Assembly (NCBI GenBank): GCA_033584155.1
Contig: CP138355.1
Location: 2,489,826-2,553,825 of the forward strand
Direction of reading: 5' to 3'
DNA from: Candidatus Electrothrix scaldis
GTDB taxonomy: Bacteria; Desulfobacterota; Desulfobulbia; Desulfobulbales; Desulfobulbaceae
DNA: 64,000 nt
A program made the position numbers and the translations under genes. Positions 2,320 to 43,882 of this stretch are shown piece after piece; position 1 is the stretch's first letter; each line of letters begins with the position of its first letter. The notes beneath the pieces were generated by a model. The model did not search any database, was not told the origin of the DNA, and worked only from the letters and a program-made list of their open reading frames with translations.

Positions 2320-2509
2320 GTCTATAACGGTAACTCAGTGAGTTGCGAAACGATCTTGCCCAAATTTGGACTTTTTGTGAATCCATCACTCTTAGAGTAA
2401 TGATAAAATAAGATCACACCACCCCGTAATCCCACCACAGAATCAGCTCATCATCATCAACCTTGCCCCAACACCCGCCCGCTGCCGATAAGTATATTCT
2501 TTCTTTCTG

Positions 2510-4449: not shown

Positions 4450-4480
4450 TTCTCATCTAAAAAATAGATAAGGAAATAGT

Positions 4481-5919: not shown

Positions 5920-6206
5920 AGGAAATAGTCCGAATATATCTGCTTGTATATTTTTTCTTTGAAAAGATAGATCAAAAGTCCCACAGTATACCAGACCGGG
6001 CTGATATATCCCACTTTTCCAGTGCAAACAAGCTATCGTAAAACCTCCCTTCACTCAACCATAATTCCCCCCTCCATGCTTGCAATTTCCTGATAAGTGC
6101 TCTAATAATTTACTTTCAAGGAGCAATTATTTCCCCCTGGAAAAACATCTCCCCAGAACAGCAAACCGGCATTATTACCCTGCGCACCACGCGACAACAC
6201 ACAGGA

Positions 6207-19330: not shown

Positions 19331-20978
19331 TCCTCAAAAATCCTCAATGCGCTGATTTAAAATGAAATTTAAATAAAAATATTGTAAAATATGCATGTTT
19401 TTGACGTTCACCCCCTCATAAGGCATGCACATGATTAGGTACACCAGTGACAGACAGCTTACACTTGAAGGATTCAGCCTTCCGTTTGGAGGTAAACTGA
19501 ACCCTGAAAACAGATGGATCAAATGGCATAAAGTTATTCCGTGGGATGAGTTCGCCATCAGATATTACCGAACATTGGACCCGCGTCAGGGGCGACCTGC
19601 CAAAAATGCCAGATTGGTGATCGGCGCGTTAATCATTAAACATAAGCTGACGCTCAGTGACGAAGAAACCGTACTCCAGATTCAGGAGAACCCCTATCTT
19701 CAGTATTTTGTTGGGTTTTCTTCTTTTCAAGACAAGCAACCTCTAGCTCCCAGCCTGTTTGTTGAGATTCGAAAACGGATGGGAAAGGATGTCTTTTCTG
19801 CGTTTGAAGAAGTGATTTTGGAAAAACTTGCTCTCTCAAAGAAAAGTACGACAAATGAAGATGAAAAAGAGGATAAGGGTGAGGAAGAGCCCGTTGAAAA
19901 TAAGGGAAAAATGCTTGTCGATGCAACGGTTGCTGAGCAAGCGATTCGTTACCCGACTGATCTGAGTTTACTCAACGAAGCCCGTGAGATTTTCGAGCAG
20001 CTGATTGATGATCTGTACAAACAGAGTGACTACCCCAAAAAGCCCAGGACATATCGGAGAGTTGCTCGCAAAAACTACCTGAACCTGGCTAAAAAAAAGA
20101 AACCAGGCAAAAAAAATCTGCGGCGCGGACTTCGGCAGCAATTACAGTACGTCCGAAGAAATATACGATATATTGAAGAGTTGCTTGATAATGTTGGATC
20201 GGCACCTTTTCCACTTCCCCATCAGCAACAACGACAGTATTGGATCATTCAGCATGTGTATAGCCAGCAGGATGAGATGTACAAAAAACGAAAACGACGT
20301 TGCGATGACCGAATTGTTTCCATTGCCCAGCCTCATGTACGACCAATAGTTCGTGGGAAAGCAGGTAAAAATGTGGAGTTCGGTGCCAAACTCAGCGTGA
20401 GCATGGTCGATGGTTTGGCTTTTGTCGATCATATTGGTTGGGATGCCTTCAACGAAGGCACGGATTTGCGTGAGCAAGTGGAGAGTTACAAGCGCCGGAA
20501 TGGTTACTATCCGGCAGTCGTACTGGCTGATCAGATCTACGGAACAAGAGAAAACCGTAAATATCTCAAAGAGAAAGGCATTCGATTTGGTGGTAAACGA
20601 ATGGGCAGGTCCCCGAAAGAGACAGAAGAAAACAAAGAACGTCTTCGGGAACTGAAAGCACAACGAATTCGGGATAGTCGAGAACGGATCCCCATTGAGG
20701 GGAAATTTGGCCAAGGAAAAAACGGCTACCGACTCAACTACATCCGGGCAAAACTTCAGAGGACCTCTGAAGCATGGATTAACTGTATCTTCCTGGTCAT
20801 GAATCTGATGGTTCTGCTCAGGAAGTTGCAGGAACAGCTTGAAAATTTATATCTTTCACGGTTTTTACTTTTACGCAGCCAGCTGAATCATATTAGCGCT
20901 CGATTTTTTGCGTTCTTTGAGCAAATGCCAAGGCAAGTCCTGCAGTATTGCCTGTATGAGAGGTTGGCTTTTTGAGGA
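19331..20978. mobile_element. IS1182/IS5-like insertion sequence
   Basis: Short inverted ends TCCTCAAAAA (19331) and its reverse complement (ending 20978) enclose the transposase gene with about 100 bp of leader. No convincing target duplication is seen. The right end falls inside the reading frame of the large minus-strand HNH/PIN gene, so the element appears to have inserted into the 3' end of that gene. Confidence 0.65.
19431..20975 (+). CDS. IS1182/IS5-like transposase
   Basis: A 514-residue transposase when started at MIRYTSDRQLTLEGF (19431; an in-frame ATG also lies at 19425). It has the N-terminal DUF772-type region (WDEFAIRYYRTLDPRQGRPA, LVIGALIIKHKL, LQYFVGF) and then an acidic linker (NEDEKEDKGEEEPVE). 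The DDE core includes LVDATVAEQAIRYPTDLSLL, FGAKLSVSMVDGLAFVDH, VVLADQIYGTRENR and IEGKFGQGKNGY. The frame is complete. Its last 105 bp overlap the antisense 3' end of the HNH/PIN gene. Confidence 0.85.
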   Translation: MIRYTSDRQLTLEGFSLPFGGKLNPENRWIKWHKVIPWDEFAIRYYRTLDPRQGRPAKNARLVIGALIIKHKLTLSDEETVLQIQENPYLQYFVGFSSFQDKQPLAPSLFVEIRKRMGKDVFSAFEEVILEKLALSKKSTTNEDEKEDKGEEEPVENKGKMLVDATVAEQAIRYPTDLSLLNEAREIFEQLIDDLYKQSDYPKKPRTYRRVARKNYLNLAKKKKPGKKNLRRGLRQQLQYVRRNIRYIEELLDNVGSAPFPLPHQQQRQYWIIQHVYSQQDEMYKKRKRRCDDRIVSIAQPHVRPIVRGKAGKNVEFGAKLSVSMVDGLAFVDHIGWDAFNEGTDLREQVESYKRRNGYYPAVVLADQIYGTRENRKYLKEKGIRFGGKRMGRSPKETEENKERLRELKAQRIRDSRERIPIEGKFGQGKNGYRLNYIRAKLQRTSEAWINCIFLVMNLMVLLRKLQEQLENLYLSRFLLLRSQLNHISARFFAFFEQMPRQVLQYCLYERLAF

Positions 20979-23900
20979 TGCTCTAACTAAGGAATATTGA
21001 GCATCATACCTGTATCTACGGACAATAATTCGCAATTCGTCAGCAAGTTCTCTGCTCCTTGAAACTGCTGCAACAGTAGCAACTCCGTTTAAAACAGAAA
21101 AAAGTTGCTCACTATCTTCTAAATTTGCAATCAGATAGCGTGAACGTTTTAGAGCTTCTGCGGCTAATTGTGCATGATGTGAATCAAGGTGAAAAACCAG
21201 AGCTAAATTGACAAGAGGGAAAAAAGAGGTTGGCTCGACAAGCTCCTCATTGAGCTGCGACTCTATTCGTTCCGATAAGTCAGCAGGCAAAAGGTTAGGG
21301 CTATCTTCATAACCTTCTAAGGGACCTGGAAAGAAAGATTGTGGAATTTTAATATATGACGATATGCTTGTTGGTTCGGAACCAAAAAGAAGATTATGCA
21401 ACTCGCCATTATTGATATTCTCTTTATACTTGTTGGCAGCAATGCTGACTCGACTGATAAATTCGTTTTTTATCTGGGAAGGATCTGCAAAATCAGGATA
21501 CCAGCGTGGCTCCGAACGTACATCAATCAATGATTGCAAATAATATCCTCCTGATAAATCTTTGAGTACATCTGTACAAAATGATTCAATATCAATTCTT
21601 AACTCAATAAATTGACGTTGAACCAATGCAGCCTGCGCCAATGCTGCAAGCCTTCTGTAGAAGGGAGGTTCTTCTGAAAAAAGTCTAATTCTGGATAACT
21701 CCGCATCTACAAATATAAACAATGCTGAAAACAGTTTGAATTCACTTGATGCACCCTCAATATCATCATCTCTCATCTGTTTAATGATCCGAACAAGAAA
21801 CGGTTCAATTCCAGGTCGTATCGCAAGAATGCGTAAACCGATTTCAACTGCACCAAGTTGTGCAAGCCTATCACCATGCTTTTCAAGAAAGCCAAATACG
21901 TTAACAAGCTCCTCATTACTCAGATGATCAGCAGCAATTTTATTTGACAAAGAAGAATGTGATGCCAGCAACAAGCTGAATAGGACTCCCTCATATGACC
22001 GCCATGCAGAAAGTTGCTCAAAATGCCTCTTCCCTGCTCCTACAGCATAATCCTTGATGGATATGCTATCGTCATACTCCCCAATTAATCGCTCAAAATA
22101 TTCTCGTGAGGGCGGAACAAGAGAAGACATCTTGAAACTTTCCTCACTTCTTATTTCATGACGTATCTGTTTGATTACCTCAACAGGGGTGTTGCGAAGG
22201 TCATTCTGAAAAAGCTCATACTCATCATCTTTCAAAGGACGTTTAGAGAGGATATTTCGCCATCTTTCTTTCTCGCTAGAGGGGAAATTGATATTTATTT
22301 CGGCTTCATCAACAACTTGAAGGCGGACTTCTTTTTCTTGAGAGAACACAGCAAAATCAGACAAAACAAGTTCGTGCTCTTCAGAAGCAAGTCTGAGAAC
22401 AGGCAACTTGCTTTGTTCCTTTTTGCTGGTCACCTTCCACTCTTGGTCATCATTATCAGTTATAATGACTTCAGGTGTCCCGGAAAATGCCTTTCGAACA
22501 GCGGAGAAAAGTTCAGAACGTTGCATCGAAATATCAGGTTGGCTAAAAGAGAGAATAGCATCCACCGTGATTCCGTATTGTTCTATAAACGATATATCAT
22601 CAAACAAGGAGCTGCATATTAATGGCGGACACATTTCCAGAGCGCTTTGCGCCAGTGTAGATTTGACATAAAAGGAATTCTCTGCGCCGTTCTCTCCCAG
22701 CTCGGGCAGTTTCATACTCGCCATTTCTACTATCATTCTTTTTTGCCAACTGATAATCCAAGCGTACAAGTCAGGGGATTGTTGTTTGACAGGAGCCAAT
22801 ACTTCACTCTCTGCCCATTTCCAGTACGCCTCTTTAACTGTCTGCTGCCATTCAGGAAGCGGTCTGAGCAGCATTTGGATATACGCTCCTCTTCCAATAT
22901 TAACAAGATTGTCTCCGTTCTCACTCTCAAGACAATGCGCCCAGCCACGAACATCAATTTGGGCCAGAATCCAGTTGGATTGAATTGTAACTACTAAAAA
23001 ATCAGCTTCATCTGTCCATAACCTTTTTAAGACGTTGATAAAAACCTTAATGGTATTATGCAGCCAAGGCACTTCACCAGGAAGCTGAAGCCAACTGCTC
23101 ATCCGAGTACGGAGAATATTTTCCCGAATAGCTTTCAGTTCCGCCGTTTCGACTATTTTATCATTCTTGATAGTAGCATCAGCAAGATACCCTATAAGTT
23201 CATCTTCGGTTACAGGCGTAAAATAATAACCGGCCCGGCGAAGCAGAGTTCGATATTCAAACTGATCTTCGATAGTGATTAAGCCTTCAGACACTAAAAA
23301 ATCTATCAGATCAAATGACGAGAGAATAGGTACCTGGGCAGAAGCATCGTCAACTCTCCCGTACTGATTGAGAGACCTATCATCAGATATAATCGCATCA
23401 CAATTTTTTGCCAAACTCATTACACCCAATGTTGGATGTTCATAGAGCGATTGTTCTTTCGACATATCAACAGGACAACGTCTGCCCAGTTTAATCTTTC
23501 CCGTTTCTATTCTTGAGCTGACAGCTGCTCGTATACGTTCTATCGTTTCGTTGATTTTGCCGGAAATGCTTTCATAAGCAATAAGTTCATTAGCATCAGA
23601 CACTTTTTCTGGCGACACAATTACCCTGAAACCCGCCGGTTGCAGTTTTTCGAGTATCCCAACTTGGAACAAATAAGAAACAGACAGGTTATCCAAATAC
23701 AATACAGCCCCGTCGGAGATCTCCGGCTGATGAGACCAAGGCTTCTCGTGCAAGTATAAATACCTTTGCGCATTTTTTTCTTCTTTGGCTGTAATCTGAC
23801 CTTGTTGTCGCAATTTTTCCACAAGGGCCAGGCAACCGCTTACGACATCTGCATGTTCCGTCAGATCAGCTTGTTCCACCATCAAAGAACCGGCCCGATA

Positions 23901-26801
23901 AATCGGAGCCGAACGAACAACGATACGTTGAGTATCACACTTACTCTCTGATCTTTCAGCCTCTGTGATTAGTGCCGCTAACTCAATTCCGACTTGATCC
24001 GACAGGATGCTGTCCGCTGTCGTACTCGGAATAAATTTTTCCAGAATACCTCTGGCAAGTAAGTCATGTATTTTATGTGCCCTTTCAATTCGACTCGGCT
24101 GATGGAACACGACTTTTTGTTTTTCCTCAAACAGCCATGCAAGCGTTGAATGCGGTATCCAGACCTCTTCAAAGGCATCAAAAGTTTTCTCCAGAAGATC
24201 CAGAAAACTCAAAGTGAGCAATGCAGTTTTCTCAATTGCTATTGATCGTCCTATGTTGCAATGCATCAATTGACGTTTACCGCTGTAGGCTGGCACAATT
24301 CCTCTGCGCCTCGGATCACTTTCTGATAAGTTTGCCAAAGCTGGAAGAAGAATCAAGCCGACCAGAGATTTATTGAGAGCTTGAGCTGCTTGAAATATCG
24401 GAATTTCACCTCGGCTCAATAAGTTCCATATTTCATCCTCTCGACGTTCCCAATCAGGCTTTTGGTCGAGTAAATCTTTAAGAGTTGCTCGCTGAATCGG
24501 TCCGTTATCGTCCGAAAGATTGATTGATTTTTGAAACCATTGAGATACTTCATCGTCATTTTCCCATCCAGCACTTGAAGCCAGAAAATAGGCTGCTGCC
24601 AATATTTCGGCATTTTCGGGACTTTTCTCTACAGCCGCAAAAACCAACTCTTTAGCATTCGGAAAAGCTAAATAAAAAGCCAGTCGAGCAGCTTCTAGCA
24701 ACTCCTGAGCAGTTCTGTTGTCTTTTTCTTGATATTCGTTTGCTACAATCGCGGACAGAGAGTTCCAATCACCCAAAGCAACGCAAAGATTAAAGTGTAA
24801 TGCACGATAATTTGGGTTGTTCAGGCCATCAGCCATTTTTTTCAACTCGGTGCGAGCATCAAGCAATGCGCCTTCATCATAGAGAGACCAACAATAAAAC
24901 AGCTGTAGTTTCTTAGATTGATCAACAAGCTCAGCGTTCTCCTTAAGCAACTCAACAAGTTGTTCATTCTCATCAATTTGGTACAGAATCTCGGCTAATC
25001 GTTCAGCGTCCCGCACAGAATGAGTTTTTTCAAATAAAATCCGGGGATACTTGTAGCAAGTTGTAAGCCCTCCCTTCTTTTCAAGTTCATCTACTAACAA
25101 TATCAGGTCGCTCAATGAATCGGTCTGCCTGAACTGTTCTTTTTTTGCCTCAACAGAATCTATCTTTCCTTCTGCTTCGGCAATTATTCTACGAAGACGG
25201 CTTTCCTCAACTGTGGTAAGCCCCTTATTTAAAAGGTCCTCTAATGACCTCGTTGCTTTTTCAGAAAAACCCGCTTGAGAGAGAAGTTCAACCTGAAGGC
25301 ATTGTATTGATTTCTCGTCAATATATTCAACTAGATCATCATAATGTCGGGAGATGTAATTAGCTGCATCTTCCGGGGTCTTCCGGGTAAAGGTAAGAGC
25401 AAAACGAGCAACAGCCGCTTCATGTGTAATTTTACCATAGAGAGCAACCAACCTACCGATCTCACGTTCAACAGCATTTATGTCTAATGTAATTCCAAAC
25501 TGAAGAGCAAGCGGGACAAGGTGGAGAGCGGATTGTAAATCACGAAGTTTGCTCTTTAGTCGTTCCCTTCCATCGACGAATGTGTCGGGATTCTTTAATT
25601 CAAGCCAAAGAGCGTACTGATCTTCAAATATTGCTGTACGAGAAAGGTTGAGTTGTTGCGCCGCCAAAGATGCCTTTAGAAAACAACCATGTGCTATCCG
25701 GCGGGCGTTAAGTGAGTTGTGGTCTGCGGACAAGGGGAACTCTGCTGCATGAAAGGGCACTTGCTGAAGTACAAGAAAGCGCAATTCATCTGGAACTGCA
25801 AAAACGAGATAAGTAACCGCCATCATGCGATAAAGCACAGGTGCATCGCGCAAGTCATCATCGCTTATTGAATCAATAGTTATCTTGGCATGATCCCATT
25901 GAGCAAGTTGAAGCTGATACGATAAAAGAACAACTTTACCATCGGAACTAAGTTCACCCGACCCGAGTTCAGCAGCACTCAGCCAGTCCAGAGCTCCTTG
26001 CGGTCCATCATGCTGTGCGACGATTATCAATGCGGCAGAACGTGAAGCAGGAGAACCAATATCTGCCAGAATGCTCAACGCACTGCTTTTATCTTTTTTC
26101 TTTGAAAGAACAAACGCTTTAGCAATATCATTCTCTAAGCAATTGCCTATTTGTTGGGCACAACTGAGATAGTATTCCGACTGCTCAAGTTCTTTGAGTG
26201 ATAAAACACGTGAGCACCAAGCTAATGCATGACACCGTACGGTATCATTCCCGCCTGATAATTGTCCGTTGACAAGTTGTTCGCTCAACTTCAAGGAAAA
26301 GTTGATGGTATCAAACTCTTGGAAGAAGCGAGACTTGCGGAGCAAATCAATTTCATCCTTTATCTTTTGATCAATAAGCTCAGTTGGAAGGTGAGAACGG
26401 AGAAGATTAATAAACTGATTTTTTTCCGTATCTGCAGAAAGCAATTTCTGCATCTTCGATTCATGCGATTGCTTCCAGTCTTTCAGCAGGTCTGCCGAGT
26501 AGCTTTCATGCTGTTTATCAACAATGACGTGGTGAGTTGGGCAAAACAAGATTAGGTTTTCATATGCATTCAGTTCCTTCTCCGTTAATCCAACTCTACC
26601 TCGCGGACCATCTTCGTTTAATGCATAGATGTGGCAAATTTCGTTAAGAACAATTTTTTCAGACTTCTCGGTAGCCCCCTGGATAACAGGATTTGTGCAT
26701 TCTGGATATGCACACTGATTCCCACTTAAACCAAACAATATTTTTAGTGTTCTTTGGGAGTATTTGCGTTTTAATTTCGTCAAACTCGCTCGTTTCCCCA
26801 T
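20871..26801 (-). CDS. Giant HNH / helical-repeat / PIN-like protein, 1976 aa
   Basis: One uninterrupted frame. Residues 25-100 form an HNH endonuclease-like zinc domain (C30 and C35, EICHI at 54-58, then ENLILFCPTHHVIVD at 81-95). About 100-850 are helical, TPR-like repeats rich in Ala, Leu and Glu. About 860-1000 contain a VWIPHSTLAWLFEEKQKV segment resembling part of a PIN fold. About 1025-1170 look like a PIN-like nuclease: AVLYLDNLSVSYLF supplies an early Asp and CDAIISDDRSLNQYG a late Asp pair. About 1170-1941 are again mostly helical, without a known motif. From residue 1942 the protein is encoded by the antisense of the neighbouring IS, so the natural C-terminus is lost. Large TPR-PIN proteins are known among prokaryotic conflict systems; a defence role is inference. 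It starts 91 bp downstream of nifS. Confidence 0.8.
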   Translation of the reverse strand: MGKRASLTKLKRKYSQRTLKILFGLSGNQCAYPECTNPVIQGATEKSEKIVLNEICHIYALNEDGPRGRVGLTEKELNAYENLILFCPTHHVIVDKQHESYSADLLKDWKQSHESKMQKLLSADTEKNQFINLLRSHLPTELIDQKIKDEIDLLRKSRFFQEFDTINFSLKLSEQLVNGQLSGGNDTVRCHALAWCSRVLSLKELEQSEYYLSCAQQIGNCLENDIAKAFVLSKKKDKSSALSILADIGSPASRSAALIIVAQHDGPQGALDWLSAAELGSGELSSDGKVVLLSYQLQLAQWDHAKITIDSISDDDLRDAPVLYRMMAVTYLVFAVPDELRFLVLQQVPFHAAEFPLSADHNSLNARRIAHGCFLKASLAAQQLNLSRTAIFEDQYALWLELKNPDTFVDGRERLKSKLRDLQSALHLVPLALQFGITLDINAVEREIGRLVALYGKITHEAAVARFALTFTRKTPEDAANYISRHYDDLVEYIDEKSIQCLQVELLSQAGFSEKATRSLEDLLNKGLTTVEESRLRRIIAEAEGKIDSVEAKKEQFRQTDSLSDLILLVDELEKKGGLTTCYKYPRILFEKTHSVRDAERLAEILYQIDENEQLVELLKENAELVDQSKKLQLFYCWSLYDEGALLDARTELKKMADGLNNPNYRALHFNLCVALGDWNSLSAIVANEYQEKDNRTAQELLEAARLAFYLAFPNAKELVFAAVEKSPENAEILAAAYFLASSAGWENDDEVSQWFQKSINLSDDNGPIQRATLKDLLDQKPDWERREDEIWNLLSRGEIPIFQAAQALNKSLVGLILLPALANLSESDPRRRGIVPAYSGKRQLMHCNIGRSIAIEKTALLTLSFLDLLEKTFDAFEEVWIPHSTLAWLFEEKQKVVFHQPSRIERAHKIHDLLARGILEKFIPSTTADSILSDQVGIELAALITEAERSESKCDTQRIVVRSAPIYRAGSLMVEQADLTEHADVVSGCLALVEKLRQQGQITAKEEKNAQRYLYLHEKPWSHQPEISDGAVLYLDNLSVSYLFQVGILEKLQPAGFRVIVSPEKVSDANELIAYESISGKINETIERIRAAVSSRIETGKIKLGRRCPVDMSKEQSLYEHPTLGVMSLAKNCDAIISDDRSLNQYGRVDDASAQVPILSSFDLIDFLVSEGLITIEDQFEYRTLLRRAGYYFTPVTEDELIGYLADATIKNDKIVETAELKAIRENILRTRMSSWLQLPGEVPWLHNTIKVFINVLKRLWTDEADFLVVTIQSNWILAQIDVRGWAHCLESENGDNLVNIGRGAYIQMLLRPLPEWQQTVKEAYWKWAESEVLAPVKQQSPDLYAWIISWQKRMIVEMASMKLPELGENGAENSFYVKSTLAQSALEMCPPLICSSLFDDISFIEQYGITVDAILSFSQPDISMQRSELFSAVRKAFSGTPEVIITDNDDQEWKVTSKKEQSKLPVLRLASEEHELVLSDFAVFSQEKEVRLQVVDEAEININFPSSEKERWRNILSKRPLKDDEYELFQNDLRNTPVEVIKQIRHEIRSEESFKMSSLVPPSREYFERLIGEYDDSISIKDYAVGAGKRHFEQLSAWRSYEGVLFSLLLASHSSLSNKIAADHLSNEELVNVFGFLEKHGDRLAQLGAVEIGLRILAIRPGIEPFLVRIIKQMRDDDIEGASSEFKLFSALFIFVDAELSRIRLFSEEPPFYRRLAALAQAALVQRQFIELRIDIESFCTDVLKDLSGGYYLQSLIDVRSEPRWYPDFADPSQIKNEFISRVSIAANKYKENINNGELHNLLFGSEPTSISSYIKIPQSFFPGPLEGYEDSPNLLPADLSERIESQLNEELVEPTSFFPLVNLALVFHLDSHHAQLAAEALKRSRYLIANLEDSEQLFSVLNGVATVAAVSRSRELADELRIIVRRYRYDAQYSLVRASSKSQPLIQAILQDLPWHLLKERKKSSANMIQLAA

Positions 26802-33036: not shown

Positions 33037-34518
33037 TTATGCTGCCATTTTGAAGAGCGGCAGTTGCGGTGACTTTTTAGCAGGTTCTTTTTTGCGGGTT
33101 CCTGCCATTTTTAACAATAATACAGATATGCTGCTGAATGTACATCGAACTGTGATTGCGGACTGACCGCGAACCCGAACGGTTTCAAGACCGGTTTGAT
33201 GTTTTAACAGATTAAAAGGTCGTTCACAGTTCTTGCGAATATCATGCGCTTCCCGTATCTGCTCGATATGGTAAGGTATTCGCTGGAAAAAGCCTCTGTC
33301 TAATGGTATGCTTCGACATTGAGGGCAGCTTCCTTTGAGAAGACATTCGCTTGTATTTGCTGAACATTTATACTCGTGATGATCTTCCTCAACGCCTGCA
33401 TACTCCATAGGGACAGAACATTCGTCATGGCAGAAAACTGTGCCGTTGACGGTATCAACATTATCCGGTGTAGATACTGTGGAACAGGGTGGAGTTGTCA
33501 CATATACACCTGTTTTATCATATAATGATCCATCATTGTCATGATAAGCAGTATCGGCGGTGATGAGTTTGACCTCAACTCCCATTGCCTGCGCCACATC
33601 GACCAAAAGCGAAAGGAAGTGGCTGTCATGGTGATTTGCCGGTGCAAGCAGGGAGATAATCGGAAAACTATGACCAGTTTCAGCGTCAATTGCAGTTAAC
33701 GTATGCAGACGATAGCCGACTACGTATACAGATTTGTCACGCTTGTTGCGTCGTTTCCCACAGTCGCTGTCGAGATCATTGTAAATGCGTATATTTTGAC
33801 CATTGATATTCAATGAAGCCAAGGGGATTTTACATTCATTGGCCAGTTCGGTAGAGTCCACTCCGTGCAGGATATGGTCACCAAGCATCCCGGACTGCAA
33901 AATATACACCGTAATATTAATTTGTTGGACAAATGTGAGGGAATTACGGAATTTGCTGAGTTGGGTATGGTCAATCATTATTTTTTCACGTAATGACAGT
34001 CCAATAAAGGCTCGGTTCTGTTTCCGGTCAAGGCCGAGATATTCTTCATCACAGAATTTTCGGTAGCTGATTTCCGGATACTTAATCGTCTTGAGCAGCT
34101 CGGCACGGAACAGGTTGTGAGAAAATAAGTCCCGCATAGCAGGACTATAGCCCTCATAAGCTAACAGGCGATTGATAATTTCGTTGTCAAGCAGCTGGTC
34201 AATAAACCGGAGTTCTTCATCTTTGATATATTTGGCGAAACGACTTTCTCCGCAACGCTTTATAATATTGTTATTTTTTGATTCATTGACAATATCAGCC
34301 ATCTGATCAAGGCTGATAATGCCTTTTGTTGGAACCTGCTGTTCCACGCCGAGCAGCTCATCCGACGAGGCTGAAATCTCCTGTTTAAAATCATACTCGC
34401 CTGCGACCTGCGCAAGAACTTTTCGAGAGATTTCTTTTTTGGTTTTTCGATTCAGACGGTTCCAATTGGGATAGTTTCTCTTGAGCTCTTTTTGTACGAT
34501 ACGTTTGATATTTTGTAA
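33037..34518 (-). pseudogene. IS1182-like transposase, probably lacking its start
   Basis: A continuous frame from about 34518 encodes a DDE transposase. It opens with IKRIVQKELKRNYPNWNRLN, a typical N-terminus of this group, but without a start codon. The first usable start is GTG 34347 (436 residues). Core motifs include MIDHTQLSKFRNSL, HGVDSTELANECKIPLASL, GYRLHTLTAIDAETGH, LITADTAYHDNDGSLYDK and a Cys-rich insert (CSANTSECLLKGSCPQC). The C-terminus is complete. Loss of the first codons, together with a missing right inverted repeat, suggests a 5'-truncated copy next to the ISKra4 element. Confidence 0.6.
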
Positions 34519-35896: not shown

Positions 35897-36547
35897 AGCA
35901 TATTTTGACAATCATCAATGACAAGAGCCACGCTTGAGGATAAATTGCTTCCAGTGACCGTGAAGGTGGTTGATTCATTCAAAGTAGCTTCGCTAGGCAA
36001 TACTGACACGTCAGAATTGCCGCCCGACGACAACCGAGGCTCACAGGTTTTATCTGGCCCGCTTACGGGTTGGTCTGAAGCGGGAACTAATCGGATTGCA
36101 TCAAAGCCTATCTTCTTTGATAGAGAGCTTTCACCTGCTGTCACATCCGTCAAAGAAACATCCAAGCCATCGCTTCCGACATCGTAAATACCTAAACTCA
36201 CTCAATTGTTCGAAATTATACCCTGATTTATCTCGGCACCATATACCGTACCATCTATCGCTATTTCATAGCAGGCATGATTCGTTGTTGCGCAATCTGA
36301 AGGAATGAAAGCCTGCACATCCCATCTCCCAGCAGTTACGCCAGAGAATGAATAGGTGCAGTAATTTTCCACATCACTTGACTCATCACTATTCTTTGTC
36401 CATTTGCTGTTATAGAACGGTGTAGTATCTTTAAAAAGCTCTTCATCATAATGCCCAACAGTTTGGTTGTGCCAATATTCATCAGGGCCGTGGCAGGAGG
36501 CATCATACTCTTCGATGGTAATTGATTTTTGCAAACGATGTTGGCTC
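35897..36547 (-). pseudogene. Fragment of a secreted golvesin/IPT-like surface protein
   Basis: A minus-strand frame runs from about 36547 to the ISKra4 end. The first part (ITIEEYDASCHGPDEYWHNQ, then GRWDVQAFIPSDCATTNHAC) resembles golvesin/xanthan-lyase C-terminal beta domains. An in-frame TGA at 36202-36204 falls in IISNN-stop-VSLGIYDVGSDG, exactly where a Trp is usual before V-x-LG-x-Y, so it is probably a TGG to TGA mutation. The second part is an IPT-like beta stretch (STTFTVTGSNLSSSVALVID). Both ends are cut, by a solo IS end on the right and the ISKra4 element on the left. Confidence 0.65.
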
Positions 36548-36656
36548 AATTGGGCTTGAAGATTATTTGCCGCCATTATAGCTAAACCAAGCGTTTTGTC
36601 GCAACGTTATGAGTAATTTTTTGTGCAAGTGTCAACCGGGATATGAAGCATGCCGC
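36548..36656. mobile_element. Solo terminal fragment of the 1.86-kb IS
   Basis: About 110 bp match the right end of the IS at 320-2178. Shared blocks are GAAGATTAT.TGCCG, TATAGCTAAACCAAGC, TTGTCGCAACGTTATGAGTAA and GTGTCAACCGGGATATGAAG, ending at the same base. The rest of that element is absent, so this is a deletion scar. Confidence 0.75.
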
Positions 36657-37795
36657 TTTTGCAGGTCCAAGTCCAAAGTCAGATGAGAGAGAAAGCCTCC
36701 CTCTTTACCGAACACCTTCCAGCCCCTCAGCTTCAACCCGGTAGTCTTCCCGCTCGGCACAGTTAAATCAGAAGAGATAACGTCAGCAGTAATAATATTG
36801 TTCCCGCCAAGTATCAGGCGAAGCTCCTTGGTATTATCAGGAAGCAACACCTGATTGGCAAAATCCACCGTGCCGTCAGCCAGCTCAAGCAGATCCAGCT
36901 GCATCGGTCCGCTCGCTGTTGTACAGCCCCCTTCATCAGCGCAGGCTTCTATTTTAAGCACATCCAACTGAATTGCTGATATGGACATGAAGTTGTCAGA
37001 GGGATCTGAATTGCCATTATTATTACCGGGATCGCCTGTACCGGAACCATTAGAGTTGCCACTGTTATTACCAGGGTCGCCTGTACCGGAGCCGTTAGAA
37101 TCGCCACTGTTATTACCAGGGTCGCCTGTACCGGAGCCGTTAGAATCGCCACTGTTATTACCGGGGGCGCCTGTACCGGAACCATTGGCATTGTCATCGT
37201 TATTACTGGAATCGTCACTACCGGAGACGTTGGATGAGCTGTCGTTTTTATCGATTTCCTCTTCATGAAAACCGTCCGACTGACTGTCCTTATCACTATT
37301 ATCAGCGGAACTTAACAGAACGTTTTCCTCGCTAGTTCCGCTACTTCCCGCTGAAACACTTCTCTCCTCAGTAACTGCAACAACCGTAGAACCAGGAGTT
37401 ACTGAACCGGAATCCACCGCGCTGACAGCAGAAGAAGAGCTACCGGCAACTTCCTCCACCACCCCGTTATCAGAAGAAGAGGCTGCACTCGCCCGGCTAA
37501 CCCTACGCACCACAACCCGTTGTGCATCCGCTACAACCTCGGCAGGCTCTTCACTGTCTGCAACATCAAACCCAGAATCAGCCGAGACCTCATCAACCGC
37601 CGCAATCAAAGCCTGAACGGTCTCAGGATCGACAGAACTCTCCTGATAATCCGCATACAGATCAATATCATCAGGCACGGCATAGCGGGTACGCACATCG
37701 GCTTCAGCCTCAGCCAGACTACTGCCCTGATACACCCTGCTCTGCACTGCGGTGGAAACCTGAGAGACAAACTCATGCTTTCCTGCCGTTGCCGG
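36657..37795 (-). pseudogene. DUF4382-type surface protein fragment with Gly/Ser/Asn repeats
   Basis: The open frame 37834-36632 is chimeric. Its first codons come from the duplicated AlbA segment read in another frame, and its last from the solo IS end. Between them is genuine protein: an alpha/acidic stretch (SSLAEAEADVRTRYAVPDDI), a Ser-rich low-complexity region, four 15-residue repeats of the GSGTGDPGNNSGDSN type, and a C-terminal DUF4382-like domain (ISAIQLDVLKIEACADEG, then GGNNIITADVISSDLTVPSG and FLSHLTLDLDL). The signal peptide and C-terminus are missing. The intact ancestor was probably a cell-surface lipoprotein. Confidence 0.7.
37020..37193. repeat. 45-bp coding tandem repeat, about four copies
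   Basis: Units beginning TTATTACC.GG on the plus strand start at 37020, 37065, 37110 and 37155. They encode, on the minus strand, a 15-residue Gly/Ser/Asn repeat of the DUF4382-type fragment. Units differ by only a few bases, mostly silent. Confidence 0.9.
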
Positions 37796-38306
37796 AGCTG
37801 CCCTTTGCCGTCGCGGCCAGCAGCCAGTTTGCATTCAAGCTCAACGCTTTCCGAGAGGGTGCTGATGTCCTGTAATGTCTTAATGTTGACCATTCCGGTG
37901 TGTTGTCTCGTGTTGCGCAGGGCAATAATGCCGGTTTGCTGTTCTGGGGTGATGGTTTTCCAGAGGGAAATAATTGCTCCTTGAAAGTAAATTATTAGAG
38001 CACTTATCAGGAAATTGCAAGCATGGAGGGGGGAATTATGGTTGAGTGAAGGGAGGTTTTACGATAGCTTGTTTGCACTGGAAAAGTCGGATATATCAGC
38101 CCGGTCTGGTATACCGTGGGGCTTTTGATCTATCTTTGCAAAGAAAAAATACACAAAAATATATATGCGGACTATTTTCTTATCTATTTTTTAGATGAGA
38201 AGATAGAAGAAATATACCTGGAGGTATAAAAAATATATCTCCAGAAAGAAAAAGTATACTTATCGGCAGCAGGCAAGTGCTTGTGCAAGGTTGCGGTGGA
38301 TGAGCC
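37796..38306 (-). repeat. Uninterrupted inverted twin of the segment split at 2.4-6.3 kb
   Basis: Read on the minus strand, this segment contains in order: GCTCATC...GCTGCCGATAAGTATA, CTTTCTGGAGATATATTTTT, the ATACCTCCAGGTAT palindrome, CTTCTCATCTAAAAAATAG, the AAATAGTCC junction, the long leader, and the first ~33 codons of the AlbA/ATPase gene (MVNIKTLQDISTLSESVELE). It breaks off at 37796. All three insertion sites of the other copy are empty here. Confidence 0.88.
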
Positions 38307-38316
38307 GGTGTTCTCG

Positions 38317-38343
38317 TAAGGGCGTTTCGCGAAACGCCCCTAC
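38317..38343. repeat. Perfect palindrome, REP-like hairpin
   Basis: GGGCGTTTCGCGAAACGCCC (38320-38339) is a perfect 20-bp palindrome, extended by GTA and TAC on either side. It lies 22 bp before the helical-repeat gene. The form resembles repetitive extragenic palindromes; no T run, so not a standard terminator. Confidence 0.6.
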
Positions 38344-38364
38344 AGCCCGGCCCGAAGGGAGTGT

Positions 38365-40116
38365 ATGAACGAAGAAACGAGTTCACTTAAAAAACAATTG
38401 GTTGACGGCCTTTCTTCTGGAACTCTTCTGGAGGCTATCCGGTGCATTCGTCTGAATAACCGTGCAGATAGAGAAGCACTTGGCCAGGAAATCGCCGCCC
38501 TTCATAATGTAGGCAAGATTGATGCAATAGCAGAATTCAGAAAGCTCAATCGTTCTGATCAGCAGCATGATTTTTTCATGGTCCGGCATGTGCTGGAAAA
38601 AGCTCTGCCTCTTATAAACGCCCCTGTTTACGCTGTGATGGACTGCGTCACATATCTTACTGAAGAAGCAGGGGGCAGGATAGGGCATGGCGTATTGAGT
38701 TCTTCTTTCATTAAATTCTGCGAGGCAGATACTGAACGTCCAAAGAAAGTGCTTTTGGCTGCTTTAGACAAGGTAGATGATACTTTTGCGTTCATAACTT
38801 CGGCAATCATTGCTGGCTCCCATTTTCAAGTTGAGGAGTATGCAGGTAAGGCTGTTGAGTTATGTTCGCACGAAAATCTCCAAGTCCAGTGCCAAGCCGT
38901 TCATGCATTGCGATGCATACAATATGGTAATCGCAAGGATCTCACAGGAGAATCTCTTCTGGGTATTCAAAAGGCGGTTGAAAAACGATGCGATGAGAAT
39001 CTATTCTCTGCGGCGTTACGTGCTGTTTTCGCATTGTATAAAGTAGACGAAAGCAAAGAAGAATGTGTTGTCGAAATTATGCAATATATTCTTCAACAGT
39101 TGAGCGATACGGTTCTCTACGCAGCTTCAGAACTCCTCTTTTTAGAAGCAAAGATTCTTCCTGTCAGCATGATTGATCTTCTGTTGCAAGCTTTACTCGA
39201 AACGAATGCTGAACATCATGAAGCGATAAGAGATATTGATTCAGGTCTTTGTTCTTTGTGGCAACGTGGAATGCAGGAGAGTGTCATATCCTTTCTTGAA
39301 GAAATACTCGTTCAGGAGCAGCACGAATTCTCTGTAAAACAATTTAACGAGTTGATCTGGGAAATTGCTGAAAACAAAGAACGTTCTCTGGATATTCTCA
39401 TCACCCGCTGGCTGCTTTCTAAGCAAGTGGCATTAGGTCGTGCTGCTGCGGACCTATTAGAGGCCAGCCCAGACGACGGCATAGCTGTTGCGGCTGATCT
39501 TGACCAATTACAGGAATTACCCGAAGGTATTCGTGTATTTTTAGCAAGAAAAGCCTGCGGGTGGTTTTTTCACAAGCAAATAAGTGCTGCCAGTTTCATC
39601 GTGTCATTGATTGATACTGCTTCGGACGATGAACTTGAAGAGATAAACGAAATTTTGTTTCATCCTCTTCTGATTAGTTATTCCGGAAGTGTAAAGGATT
39701 ATCTTATTAAAGTAGTTGGGGAAGAACCTTCCGAAAAGGTAAAGCTTGTTATTGATACTGTTCTCGAACGACTTAATATCTATCATGAAAGCTTAGAATC
39801 CCCTGTTGACGAGCTGGTGCCAACCCAGGTACAGCGAGAAACCCATCTTCGCTATATGAATAGACTGATGGCAGAATCGTACAAAGAAGCTCGGAAAAAC
39901 TCTATAGTTGAACAAATTGCAACTAAGTTCTGTTTACTGTATGGGTCGCGTTCTATTCATCGCTTTGAGAACGAATTTGTTAGCCAAAATGCCCGACAGG
40001 AAATTCCCATGCAGAAAATGAGGCATTCCTTTGAGATCCCTGCTCTTGAGTATCTAGACCCACATGAACTTAATTATAAGTTGCTAATTTTTCGTGCAGA
40101 AGGATGTGGCTCATGA
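38365..40116 (+). CDS. Helical-repeat (HEAT-like) protein, first gene of a two-gene module
   Basis: A 583-residue soluble protein with no family I recognise. It is almost entirely amphipathic helices in ~35-40-residue units (for example HENLQVQCQAVHALRCIQYG, ENLFSAALRAVFALYKVDES, SDTVLYAASELLFLEAK), suggesting a HEAT/ARM-like solenoid. There is no signal peptide or membrane segment. A GAAGGGAG ribosome site precedes the ATG. Its stop overlaps the next gene's ATG as ATGA, so both are likely made in fixed ratio. It may be a sensor or scaffold for the nuclease-like partner; that is inference from context. Confidence 0.7.
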   Translation: MNEETSSLKKQLVDGLSSGTLLEAIRCIRLNNRADREALGQEIAALHNVGKIDAIAEFRKLNRSDQQHDFFMVRHVLEKALPLINAPVYAVMDCVTYLTEEAGGRIGHGVLSSSFIKFCEADTERPKKVLLAALDKVDDTFAFITSAIIAGSHFQVEEYAGKAVELCSHENLQVQCQAVHALRCIQYGNRKDLTGESLLGIQKAVEKRCDENLFSAALRAVFALYKVDESKEECVVEIMQYILQQLSDTVLYAASELLFLEAKILPVSMIDLLLQALLETNAEHHEAIRDIDSGLCSLWQRGMQESVISFLEEILVQEQHEFSVKQFNELIWEIAENKERSLDILITRWLLSKQVALGRAAADLLEASPDDGIAVAADLDQLQELPEGIRVFLARKACGWFFHKQISAASFIVSLIDTASDDELEEINEILFHPLLISYSGSVKDYLIKVVGEEPSEKVKLVIDTVLERLNIYHESLESPVDELVPTQVQRETHLRYMNRLMAESYKEARKNSIVEQIATKFCLLYGSRSIHRFENEFVSQNARQEIPMQKMRHSFEIPALEYLDPHELNYKLLIFRAEGCGS

Positions 40117-41813
40117 AGCTCATTATTCGGGAATACCTTGCCTCGTTACGGGAAAGAAGGGAGCTGGATGCCCTGCTCCCGGACCTGCTTTCACAGATGG
40201 GTCTGGATGTCTTTGCAAAGCCAGGTATAGGCAATCGGCAGTACGGAGTAGATGTTGCTGCCTTTGGCAGCATTGATGGTGAACCAAAGAAGGTTTATCT
40301 GTTTTCAATCAAGCGGGGCGACTTAGGGAGAAAGGATTGGAACAGTGGCTCAATTCAGGATCTCCAGCCCTCAATGGATGAAATCCGTGATACATACATC
40401 CCAACACACCTGCCTGTCGAATACAAAGATAAGCCTATAGAAATCTGTATCTGCTTTGGCGGCGACCTGAAAGAAGAAGTTCGGCTGAATGTTTCTACCT
40501 ATGAAGAAAAATATAGAACAGAGCAACTCTCATTCAGCGAGTGGGGTGGAGAAAAAATAGCCGGATATATTGAAAAGTTTCTTCTACGGGAAGAACTGTT
40601 GCCTAAAGACTGTCGACGCCTGCTCAGGAAATCACTGGCCATGCTTGACGAACCCGATGTATCGCACAGGCATTTTTGCCAGCTGATCAAGCTGTTGGCA
40701 AACAATGAGGACAAAAAGCCGAAAGAAATACTGACCGCAATGAGGCAGCTCAATTTATGCCTGTGGATTCTCTATACGTGGTGCCGAGAAGCGGATAATC
40801 TCGAAAGTTCCTTTCTTTCTGGAGAACGAGCAGTATTAACGGCTTGGCACATAGGTAAACCATTCCTCAATAAGAAAAAGAAAGGCAAAATTTCAACGGC
40901 CCTGCTTGAAACATCAGCCTTCATTCTGTCACTCTACACGCAGATAGTTCACTATTATCTGGAAAACAAAATCCTTCCTCATACAGGAAAACTGTATGCG
41001 ATTTCCAGAGCAACAGCTCCATCCTGTGCGCTGGATGTCAATCTGAAACTCTTTGATCTCCTCGGCAGACTGGCTTTATCCGGGATCTGGTTATATTGGC
41101 TGTCAAGTCGTTTGTCGCAAGATGATACCCAAGAAACGGAAAAGGTTATTCAGCAAGGAATTGAGCAATACCGACTTGGGATTACACAGCTTATAGCAAA
41201 CAACCCTATCTTGTTTACCCCGTATAAAGATGACCAAGCAATAGACATTGCCCTTGCGGCCTATTTTTTAGCTATTGATCCGAAAAATCACGGCGATCTC
41301 CATGCGTGGTTGAGCAATATGGTTAATCGGATTCACTTTCTTTTTCAAACAAACAGCAACTATCCCTGCACGCTGCGTAATTACCATGAACTGCTGGAAC
41401 ACCCGATACAGGACAGGGAAGACTATCAAAAGAACGTCACAAACGCGAGCGTTCTGTATCCCACGATTGCGGTATTTGCCGCGTTGTTCGGATTTGAAAA
41501 TATTTATTCAGCCGTGCAGAAGATCAAATCCGATTTTTTAGAGCATTGCGATTTTCAGTATTGGTACCCGGATGCCACCTCAGAGGAACATTACTACACA
41601 AACGATAACCTTCACGGTGCGGCCTTCCTCGGCGTATACATCGACAAAGATCACAAGAGTTTCCTGGAAGATCTTTTTAGCGAGTGCGAGGAGTCAGCAC
41701 ATTTTCATGAATTAAGTGCGATCAAGTATGGACACTGGCCACTCCTCCTCCTTGCCTCCAGACATTACCGTTTACCAATACCCCTCCATTTTCTCAAAGG
41801 ATTACAAAAGTAA
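40113..41813 (+). CDS. PD-(D/E)XK nuclease-like protein with helical C-terminus
   Basis: The start is set at ATG 40113 (MKLIIREYLASLRERRELDA), which overlaps the previous stop as ATGA; another ATG lies at 40104. It is 566 residues. The N-terminal ~120 residues look like a restriction-endonuclease-like fold: LLPDLLSQMGLDVFAKPG, then GNRQYGVDVAAFG supplying the Asp and KKVYLFSIKRGDLGRKDW supplying the Lys (V-D-V ... S-I-K), followed by ICICFGGDLKEEV. Residues about 130-566 are helical without a known domain. I infer a DNA- or RNA-targeting nuclease paired with the upstream repeat protein, possibly an antiviral module. The fold assignment needs profile support. Confidence 0.7.
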   Translation: MKLIIREYLASLRERRELDALLPDLLSQMGLDVFAKPGIGNRQYGVDVAAFGSIDGEPKKVYLFSIKRGDLGRKDWNSGSIQDLQPSMDEIRDTYIPTHLPVEYKDKPIEICICFGGDLKEEVRLNVSTYEEKYRTEQLSFSEWGGEKIAGYIEKFLLREELLPKDCRRLLRKSLAMLDEPDVSHRHFCQLIKLLANNEDKKPKEILTAMRQLNLCLWILYTWCREADNLESSFLSGERAVLTAWHIGKPFLNKKKKGKISTALLETSAFILSLYTQIVHYYLENKILPHTGKLYAISRATAPSCALDVNLKLFDLLGRLALSGIWLYWLSSRLSQDDTQETEKVIQQGIEQYRLGITQLIANNPILFTPYKDDQAIDIALAAYFLAIDPKNHGDLHAWLSNMVNRIHFLFQTNSNYPCTLRNYHELLEHPIQDREDYQKNVTNASVLYPTIAVFAALFGFENIYSAVQKIKSDFLEHCDFQYWYPDATSEEHYYTNDNLHGAAFLGVYIDKDHKSFLEDLFSECEESAHFHELSAIKYGHWPLLLLASRHYRLPIPLHFLKGLQK

Positions 41814-41838
41814 AGAAACTATTAAGAAGGATACGAGT

Positions 41839-42627
41839 ATGCTTACATTGAAAAGCCCAAAAAACATATTAGCGCAGTATTTCCTTAGTTGCCTTATCCT
41901 CCTCATCACCTTCACCGCACTGCCTGTTTCCGCCCAGACAAGCGAGCTCCATATGAAACAAGGTGATATCTTTTATCGGCAATTCAACAACCGCAACGCC
42001 TTGGCCTCCTATAAAAAAGCTTTGGAGACACAACCGAAGAACTTTGACTGTCTGAGCAAGGTCGTCAGGGCATACAACGATGTCGGTGAAGACCTGTCTT
42101 CAGATGAGTCAGAACCGTATTACGAACAAGCTGTTCAGTACGCTGAAAAATTACAGCAGATGTTTCCAGATAAGGCGCAAAGTTATTACCAACTCGCTGT
42201 CAGCTATGGCAATCTTGCCCTCCTGCGGGGAAGCAAGGAAAAGGTGAAACTCTCCGGTTCGGTGGAGAAGAATGTCCGCAAGGCCATTGCCATGAACCCA
42301 GACTATGCAGACGCCTATGTGGTTTTGGGGATCTATTATAAAGAAGTGGCCAGCCTGAACGGCTTTTTAAAGACTTTTGCCCGTATCTTTTTCGGAGACC
42401 TGCCCGAGGGAACTTTCGAGGATGCGCTCAAGGCTTTTCACAAGGCCATCACGCTGAAAACAACACGGCTGGTCTACACCTATTTTCTCATCGGTCATAC
42501 CTATGAGTCTATGGACGAGCCGGAAAAGGCAAAACAGGCCTACCTGAAGGCAGTCGGTTTTCCCAACACTGATCATCGGGATCATGCTGTAAAGGAGCGT
42601 GCAAGAAACAGGTTGCAGTCGTTATAA
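41839..42627 (+). CDS. Periplasmic TPR protein
   Basis: The start is ATG 41839 (MLTLKSPKNILAQYFLSCLI) after AAGAAGGA, giving 262 residues. A hydrophobic signal peptide ends near PVSAQ (about residue 33). Three or more TPR units follow: ELHMKQGDIFYRQFNNRNALASYKKALE, the SYYQLAVSYGNLALL block, NPDYADAYVVLGIYYKEV, and VYTYFLIGHTYESMDEPEKA. TPR proteins act as docking scaffolds; its partner is unknown. It lies 25 bp after the nuclease-like gene but its exported nature suggests an unrelated function. Confidence 0.8.
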   Translation: MLTLKSPKNILAQYFLSCLILLITFTALPVSAQTSELHMKQGDIFYRQFNNRNALASYKKALETQPKNFDCLSKVVRAYNDVGEDLSSDESEPYYEQAVQYAEKLQQMFPDKAQSYYQLAVSYGNLALLRGSKEKVKLSGSVEKNVRKAIAMNPDYADAYVVLGIYYKEVASLNGFLKTFARIFFGDLPEGTFEDALKAFHKAITLKTTRLVYTYFLIGHTYESMDEPEKAKQAYLKAVGFPNTDHRDHAVKERARNRLQSL

Positions 42628-42700
42628 GTTCCAAGCCTCTCTTTGGGAGAGACAACGTGAGAACGGTTGTCTTTTATAAAATTATCAGGAATCAATTGCT

Positions 42701-43882
42701 ATGCAGAATTTTGTCTTTCAAAATCCCACCAAGATTATCTTTGGTCGCAAAACCGTCCCCTCTGTTGGTGCAGAGACCGCCTATTTCGGACAAAAGGCCC
42801 TGCTGGTCTACGGACAGAGTAGCATAAAAAAAAGTGGCCTCTATGATCAGGTCATGAGCTCCCTTGCCGATGCCGGTGTCACAGTGATTGAACATGGCGG
42901 CACCCGTTCCAACCCTCTCCTGGATCATGTCCGGGCAGGGATTGCCAAGGCCAAGCAGGAAAAGGTCGAGGTTATTGTCGCGGTGGGTGGCGGCTCGGTC
43001 ATTGATACGGCCAAGGCCATAGCTGCGGGAACTGTGGTAGAACACGATGTCTGGAAGTTCTTCACCGGTAAGAAATCCATCAAGGGGGCCCTGCCCGTGC
43101 TTACCGTGCTTACCTTAGCCGCAGCTGGCTCAGAGATGAACTCCGGCATGGTGATCACCAATCAGGACACCCAGGAAAAGTTCGGCTTCGGCCATCGCCT
43201 GCTCTATCCCAAGGTCTCCATCCTGGACCCGGAAGTCACCTTTACCGTGCCACCGGATTACACGGCCTATGGCGCTGTGGATGCCATCGCCCATGTCCTG
43301 GAATTCTATATGACCACTGAGGATCAGTACACCCCGGTGCAGGCTCGTTTTATCGAGGGGTTGATCCTGGATGCTATGGAGTCCTGTGACCGTTGCCTTG
43401 CCGACCCCAGTGATTATGACGGACGGGCCAATCTGATGTGGACCGCGACTCTGGCTCTGAACGGCCTGACTGCCGCTGGACTTGGACGGGTGGGCTTTCC
43501 CATGCATATGATCGAGCATTCCCTGAGTGCCCTCTATGATGTGCCGCACGGGGCTGGTCTTTCCGTGGTTATACCAGGCTGGTTGCAATGGTACTTAGGG
43601 CAGGATCCTGCCCGTATTGCCCGTTTGGGCCGGGGAATCCTCCCTCCTGCGGAACAACAGGAGCTGGCAGGGCAGGGGGATACTGTCATGGCGGAGCGGA
43701 CCATCACCTTTCTCCGTACCTGGTTCAGCAAGGTGAAGAGCCCGGTCTCCCTGGCTGAGTTAGATATCCCGGCAGAGGATATTCCCCGCATTGCCGAGAA
43801 TGCCCTCGGGCTTGCTAAGGTCTGGCGTTTGAATCAGTACAGCCAGGAGATAATCGAGGATATCCTCCGGCGCTGTGCCTAG
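42701..43882 (+). CDS. Iron-containing alcohol dehydrogenase (YqhD/BdhA type)
   Basis: A 393-residue group III alcohol dehydrogenase reducing aldehydes with NAD(P)H. The NAD-binding half has FGRKTVP, VYGQSSIKKSGLYD and VAVGGGSVIDTAKAIAAG (about residue 96). Metal ligands are expected in the YGAVDAIAHVLEFYMT block (Asp about 190, His about 194), MHMIEHSLSALYDVPHGAGLS (two His, about 265-285). TLAAAGSEMNSGMVI is typical of BdhA/YqhD enzymes. The exact substrate cannot be read from sequence. It is a single gene. Confidence 0.9.
   Translation: MQNFVFQNPTKIIFGRKTVPSVGAETAYFGQKALLVYGQSSIKKSGLYDQVMSSLADAGVTVIEHGGTRSNPLLDHVRAGIAKAKQEKVEVIVAVGGGSVIDTAKAIAAGTVVEHDVWKFFTGKKSIKGALPVLTVLTLAAAGSEMNSGMVITNQDTQEKFGFGHRLLYPKVSILDPEVTFTVPPDYTAYGAVDAIAHVLEFYMTTEDQYTPVQARFIEGLILDAMESCDRCLADPSDYDGRANLMWTATLALNGLTAAGLGRVGFPMHMIEHSLSALYDVPHGAGLSVVIPGWLQWYLGQDPARIARLGRGILPPAEQQELAGQGDTVMAERTITFLRTWFSKVKSPVSLAELDIPAEDIPRIAENALGLAKVWRLNQYSQEIIEDILRRCA

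Follow-up and report, generated by a model that had tools for sequence, protein, structure and literature searches.

A 64,000-nucleotide (nt) stretch of the Candidatus Electrothrix scaldis genome (contig CP138355.1, positions 2,489,826 to 2,553,825), referred to in the following as the window, carries two overlapping genes that match the two components of the Olokun anti-phage system, OloA and OloB:

38365..40116, forward strand: oloA, predicted HEAT-solenoid partner of Olokun (ATG start, 583 amino acids; PADLOC OloA match)
40113..41813, forward strand: oloB, predicted nuclease partner of Olokun (ATG start, 566 amino acids; PADLOC OloB match)
40113..40116, forward strand: ATGA overlap (4 nt) in which oloA stops and oloB starts

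The open reading frames (ORFs) of 583 and 566 residues and their ATGA overlap, as described in the initial annotation, were confirmed, the overlap lying at 40113–40116. The length of OloB is counted from the overlapping start; the mechanical ORF list begins three codons earlier and gives 569 amino acids. Both peptides that had been quoted as signs of a nuclease, GNRQYGVDVAAFG and VYLFSIKRGDL, were found in the second ORF.

Scanned against PADLOC-DB, the window OloA matched the OloA profile with an expect value (E) of 3.8e-97 (325 bits, profile positions 7–594 of 596), and the window OloB matched the OloB profile with E 8.7e-199 (660 bits, positions 1–553 of 556); PDLC03925 and PDLC03926 are the Olokun models. 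No other family was found for either protein at E <= 5. The feature set of Olokun is present in the window: OloA and OloB both occur, they are adjacent, and oloA comes first. Pfam and NCBIfam scans of the two proteins gave nothing above cut-off, which may be why the pair had looked unnamed; below the cut-offs, OloA matched PDS5, UL128 and a HAD family, and OloB matched nothing. Judged by the profile matches, the pair is Olokun, an already named system, and the window locus is one more copy of it. The initial annotation recognised no family, knew of no named system with this pair and proposed a candidate new defence system; PADLOC names both proteins, and the near full-length matches rule out a new system. 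These matches, together with the recurrence of the pair in other phyla, show that it is real and not due to chance.

Relatives were fetched by OloB similarity alone. Queried with the single protein, the genome contigs yielded no relative; a scan with a 14-row OloB alignment (A1) then gave 80 loci, the best of at least 176 matches. These were picked up by two motifs, the first covering E14 to P23 and the second covering D47. Viral contigs added five loci, two of which resemble each other in length and match position, for a total of 85. In all 85 loci an OloA profile match lies upstream of OloB on the same strand. The oloA–oloB pair is a two-gene module with conserved order and co-occurrence, as the initial annotation had it; the opposite outcome, homologs in which the genes are never adjacent, was not seen. 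In one locus (L044) about 1.3 kb separates the genes. In the other 84, with start codons chosen by script, they overlap by 4 nt (59 loci), 17 nt (15) or 1 nt (8), or are separated by 2 nt or 6 nt (one each). The OloA frame is broken in three loci (L027, L042, L101), and in four more, near a contig end, the later part of OloA alone was matched (L022, L026, L054, L063). For the 57 pairs that occur in both alignments, OloA identity is correlated with OloB identity (Mantel r 0.881, with 0 of 2000 permutations as high). Taxa among the genome-contig records include Pseudomonadota, a Desulfosporosinus, Nitrospirae, Anaerolineales and a Cyanobium.

The OloB profile matched 3 of 395 genomes of the phylum, the window's own included, 3 of 96 related genomes, including the window's own and one weak match, and none of 14 control genomes. 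This weak match, in the same-genus genome G005 (E 2.6e-4), was not recovered by our own OloB profile. A pair from E. coli, with tail-fibre genes and pinE as neighbours, scored 370 bits (OloA) and 688 bits (OloB) against PADLOC, like the window pair. When a Citrobacter DNA query was run against 5426 E. coli genomes, 14 matched over 19% of the query length and none over 80%; one of the 14 was opened, and this search says nothing firm about the frequency of Olokun in E. coli. Among 50,697 phage records there was no match at E 1e-5. OloB relatives were found on 34 of 72,556 plasmid records, and an OloA match stood directly upstream in 12 of the 13 plasmid loci inspected. In one plasmid locus (L019) two ISAs1 ORFs lie between the oloA match and oloB; in another (L013) OloA is reduced to a 141-residue C-terminal piece and an IS3 element lies within oloB. 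Plasmid relatives of the Klebsiella group (L020 3596–4498 and L021 3596–4498) have an OloA of 300 amino acids and an OloB of 24–25% identity. Their OloA aligns to profile positions 313–589 and 360–589, respectively, i.e., the second half only, and they possibly represent a short-OloA subtype of Olokun. Since the short protein covers the second half, the C-terminal half of OloA may be the part that OloB needs.

The structural model of OloA (mean predicted local distance difference test score, pLDDT, 91.0; predicted template modelling score, pTM, 0.85) is helical up to residue 518 and continues with a beta hairpin (529–548) and a C-terminal helix. Its best structural matches were the scaffold subunits of PP2A, with Z values of up to 16.0, in a comparison in which helical repeats generally score high. 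The profile from the OloA alignment A3 matched HEAT and ARM chains in the PDB over roughly positions 118–312 (best E 1.3e-12, 60 of 117 matches listed). OloA is thus predicted to be a HEAT solenoid of antiparallel helix pairs. The earlier description "HEAT-like" holds for the predicted fold and for some relatives, HEAT_2 being found at E <= 0.01 in 11 of 66 OloA members, but not at the level of Pfam for the window protein, which passes no cut-off and is not among the 11. Mean conservation ranges from 0.45 to 0.52 over residues 481–583 and from 0.29 to 0.50 elsewhere.

An AlphaFold2 model of OloB, built from 63 sequences, had a mean pLDDT of 91.3 and a pTM of 0.86, with residues 1–20 predicted least surely (pLDDT 63 and 71 for the two blocks). 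The N-terminal part contains helix 15–28, strands 32–35, 48–52 and 60–67, helix 84–99, strand 109–115, helix 121–134 and strand 139–144, followed by a long helical region. This part of the gene is delimited as:

40113..40598, forward strand: OloB residues 1–162, predicted restriction-endonuclease-like domain (model elements and VIA-align match to FokI 401–564)

With VIA-align, which re-aligns Foldseek's own match list, the best match of the N-terminal part was to residues 401–564 of FokI (2fok_B; Z 11.4, root-mean-square deviation (rmsd) 4.0, 146 aligned residues), followed by AF1548 (1y88; Z 9.5, rmsd 3.0, 112 aligned), which we take to be a member of the PD-(D/E)XK-type nuclease fold, and MspJI (4f0p_B; Z 8.5, rmsd 4.1, 137 aligned). 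Most other high-scoring rows were helical proteins aligned to the C-terminal region, among which a designed protein ranked highest (Z 12.2). The OloB sequence profile gave a single match among PDB chains, also to a designed protein (E 0.15). By the model, the N-terminal domain is predicted to have the alpha-beta-beta-beta-alpha-beta core of PD-(D/E)XK-type enzymes. The restriction-endonuclease-like fold suspected in the initial annotation is in this way supported by the model and by the FokI, AF1548 and MspJI matches; a structure lacking a nuclease fold, the result that would have told against it, was not obtained.

Conservation of the candidate active site was counted in two alignments that both have the window OloB as row 1: A2, with 63 rows, and A1, which was assembled from tblastn and profile matches without motif selection. 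E14, E17, D19, D47 and K67 are invariant in both (63/63 and 14/14 rows). In the model, D47 just precedes strand 48–52, and K67 ends strand 60–67. The positions of interest are:

40161..40163, forward strand: codon of E17, candidate metal ligand in the first long helix (E in 63/63 and 14/14 rows)
40251..40253, forward strand: codon of D47, candidate catalytic aspartate (D in 63/63 and 14/14)
40305..40307, forward strand: codon of S65, the site of D/E in the canonical motif (never D, E or Q)
40311..40313, forward strand: codon of K67, candidate catalytic lysine (K in 63/63 and 14/14)
40356..40358, forward strand: codon of Q82, candidate relocated active-site residue (Q in 62/63, with one H, and 14/14)

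K67 and Q82 lie outside both search motifs. Of the D...SIK pattern of the initial annotation, D47 and K67 are invariant, but the (D/E)xK part is absent. Because position 65 carries no D, E or Q, the motif is non-canonical, and OloB as a canonical PD-(D/E)XK enzyme is ruled out. We describe OloB as probably working like a PD-(D/E)XK nuclease with a non-canonical site and do not file it as a canonical member of the group. Literature searches on Olokun found no published description of the OloB active site, a result that does not show its absence from print.

The pair stands behind a leader that it shares with other genes of the genus:

38171..38364, forward strand: 194-nt leader that runs up to the oloA start codon and contains a hairpin (38316–38343); common to unrelated same-genus genes

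The hairpin is the palindrome resembling a repetitive extragenic palindromic (REP) element that had been noted beside the pair; its 20-base core is unique within the window. The neighbouring insertion sequence and the rearrangement junction were likewise located: a transposase ORF (DDE_Tnp_1) lies at 33037–34347, about 4 kb upstream, and the segments at about 37796–38180 and 5921–6305 match the same stretch of the same-genus genome G003 in opposite orientations. Three leaders of G003 and G005 share 86%, 79% and 74% identity with that of the window. In these two genomes the 194-nt leader on the left and a TPR gene on the right enclose a ROCO GTPase gene in place of oloAB (858 amino acids with Roc and COR domains by Pfam in one case, 886 amino acids and alike by eye in the other). 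The same flanks place oloAB at the ROCO position behind the same leader. Up to the start codon, the window leader is identical to the ROCO leaders at 166/194 and 153/194 positions; after the start, 24/43 and 22/43 positions are identical. The hairpin stem in G005 differs on both sides.

Leaders of about 194 nt ending at a start codon precede oloA in the window, the ROCO gene in G003 and G005, and an SGNH hydrolase gene in G005. In G001, leader copies precede SGNH-like and ROCO-like ORFs, and one copy is apparently split by PIN-like toxin–antitoxin ORFs (labels by eye). The copies outside the window lie at L116 7772–7965, at L115 6367–6610 and 8447–8640, and at L161 5201–5443, 6544–6694 and 7390–7528. 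A second copy lies in scattered pieces in the window (2446–2509, 2745–2805, 4450–4496 and 5920–5966), between transposase-like ORFs, and these pieces adjoin an intact SLFN_AlbA_2 gene (6207–7700).

An OloA match was found in two of the eight same-genus genomes searched, the window's own and G007. In G007, oloAB occupies another position (L107 3805–10199), directly behind a nucleotidyltransferase–HepT pair (Polbeta E 1e-15, HepT-like E 5.8e-28); OloA there shows 69% identity, and a DDE transposase gene interrupts oloB. No Rfam family reached its gathering score in 36500–43000. Promoter-like sites numbered 8, compared with 6.6 (standard deviation 2.9) in shuffled sequences, i.e., not above shuffle level, and terminator-like sites 3, compared with 4.1 (standard deviation 1.9).

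Elsewhere in the window, a protein of 1976 amino acids (20871–26801, reverse strand) has HTH_upst_double_PIN, PIN-TPR-GreABC and Permuted_GreAB-C domains, and its N-terminus matches PADLOC models of HNH-type effectors (best PDC-M68A, E 1.5e-36). An LRR-Roc-COR protein is encoded at 9841–12228 and a SIR2_2-domain protein at 61505–62800, both on the forward strand. Proteins of these last two kinds are often seen among conflict or signalling genes.

Olokun is attributed to Millman et al. 2022 and listed as a defence system in the available text of one paper (PMC10121019), and is so listed in the available text of another (PMC12629846); both speak of copies other than that in the window. Accessible portions of other sources call it not thoroughly characterised (PMC12592470) or, in a table that covers both validated and predicted mechanisms, assign it to nuclease activity with reference to Millman 2022 (PMC10855318). 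The visible part of a further report describes a phage that lyses at least two Olokun-carrying strains (PMC12390725), which neither supports nor refutes a mechanism. Most likely, in our view, the window pair is an Olokun system in which OloA is a HEAT scaffold or sensor gating OloB, a DNA-cutting effector of the PD-(D/E)XK type. OloA would bind OloB and hold it in check; an infection cue would release or assemble OloB, which would then stop the infection by cutting phage DNA, with or without that of the host. As the acid two before K67 is missing, metal binding would depend on D47 and on a second ligand from elsewhere, which may be E17 or, beyond the lysine, Q82, in the manner of restriction enzymes whose acid is relocated. 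A more specific version makes Olokun a two-protein, sensor-gated DNA cutter that works without a methylase, guide or helicase: OloB would be a nuclease akin to FokI but with a rearranged site (E17, D47, K67, Q82), held and triggered by the HEAT scaffold. We put this version forward tentatively and consider it somewhat doubtful.

Several observations speak against a gated nuclease. The available text of one source places Olokun among systems of unknown mechanism (PMC12926258). A Foldseek search of the OloB model against the PDB returned 0 matches at E <= 0.001, and the 63 OloB members gave no match to Pfam nuclease families by sequence at E <= 0.1. Position 65, two before K67, is S in 56 rows, T in 5 and V in 2 of A2, and S in 7, I in 3, T in 2, L in 1 and V in 1 of A1. 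The invariance of E14, E17, D19 and D47 in A2 is partly selected, since its loci were found through motifs spanning these residues. The profiles are also imperfectly specific: OloA alone matched 2 of the 14 control genomes, and in genome G165, one of the 3 matched within the phylum, a frame of 439 amino acids beside an OloA match is called OloB by PADLOC (133 bits), is not recognised by our 76-sequence OloB profile and has no clear D47, a T falling at position 47 in a forced alignment. The PADLOC OloB model may cover two kinds of protein. The G165 pair lies at L007 923–3674 and at L133.

OloB might instead keep the restriction-endonuclease-like fold and not be a nuclease, its N-terminal domain binding DNA or a phage product and its C-terminal helical region acting as the effector. 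The many invariant C-terminal residues (e.g., N229, E238, W245, N310, R319, N364 and P370) are consistent with this, as is the want of an acid two before K67 in every aligned row; we nevertheless consider it unlikely, because D47 and K67 are kept in all rows of both alignments and restriction enzymes with relocated acids are described in the available text of PMC4652773 and PMC551604. A role other than against phages, such as plasmid competition or DNA repair, would fit the relatives on plasmid records; we regard it as highly improbable, given that the two papers listing Olokun as a defence system treat it as anti-phage and that relatives adjoin NACHT (L011, L019), TIR and SIR2 (L016) and CD-NTase-like genes with ThiF (L017), by label and with no control count.

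There is also a small chance, which we rate as quite low, that the copy in the window is silent: it would have taken the place of a resident gene, downstream of a leader foreign to it, and may lack expression. The ROCO gene between the same flanks in same-genus genomes, the promoter-like sites at shuffle level and the G007 copy broken by a transposase gene would agree with a silent copy, whereas the two intact frames in the window and the conservation of the leader up to the start codon argue against it.

Returning to the gated nuclease, the locus alone matters little, and only the unusual OloB site merits work at the bench. With E17, D47, K67 and Q82 named, the nuclease reading can be tested by four point mutants, and usefully so, since the published statements give the mechanism as unknown, as incompletely characterised, or as nuclease without detail.

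Compared with Olokun elsewhere, the window pair shares with its relatives, including the E. coli pair, near full-length OloA and OloB matches, gene order and adjacency, and it differs in nothing essential. The OloA model aligns with the PP2A A subunit, a HEAT scaffold, at about 10% identity and the Z of up to 16.0 given above; OloA has an additional conserved C-terminal domain. The FokI cleavage domain is the best structural match of OloB 1–162, but at 11% identity, and OloB lacks both the acid two before the lysine and a FokI-type recognition domain in front. In FokI, this acid and lysine are D467 and K469. By the aligned ranges, OloB D47 would fall near FokI D450, which is catalytic according to the accessible part of PMC4081073. 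CCGG-family enzymes (NgoMIV, Cfr10I, BsaWI) have the motif PDX21-53KX12-13E with a further acid upstream, and BsaWI uses E92, D145, K165 and D175, with 19 residues between D and K (available text of PMC4652773); the arrangement is described as a relocated carboxylate in that of PMC551604. The OloB set, E17 and D47-X19-K67-X14-Q82, resembles this motif and has the same 19-residue spacing as BsaWI, but its later position holds Q in place of E or D. From this likeness we infer that OloB may have a relocated-acid site of the CCGG-family kind.

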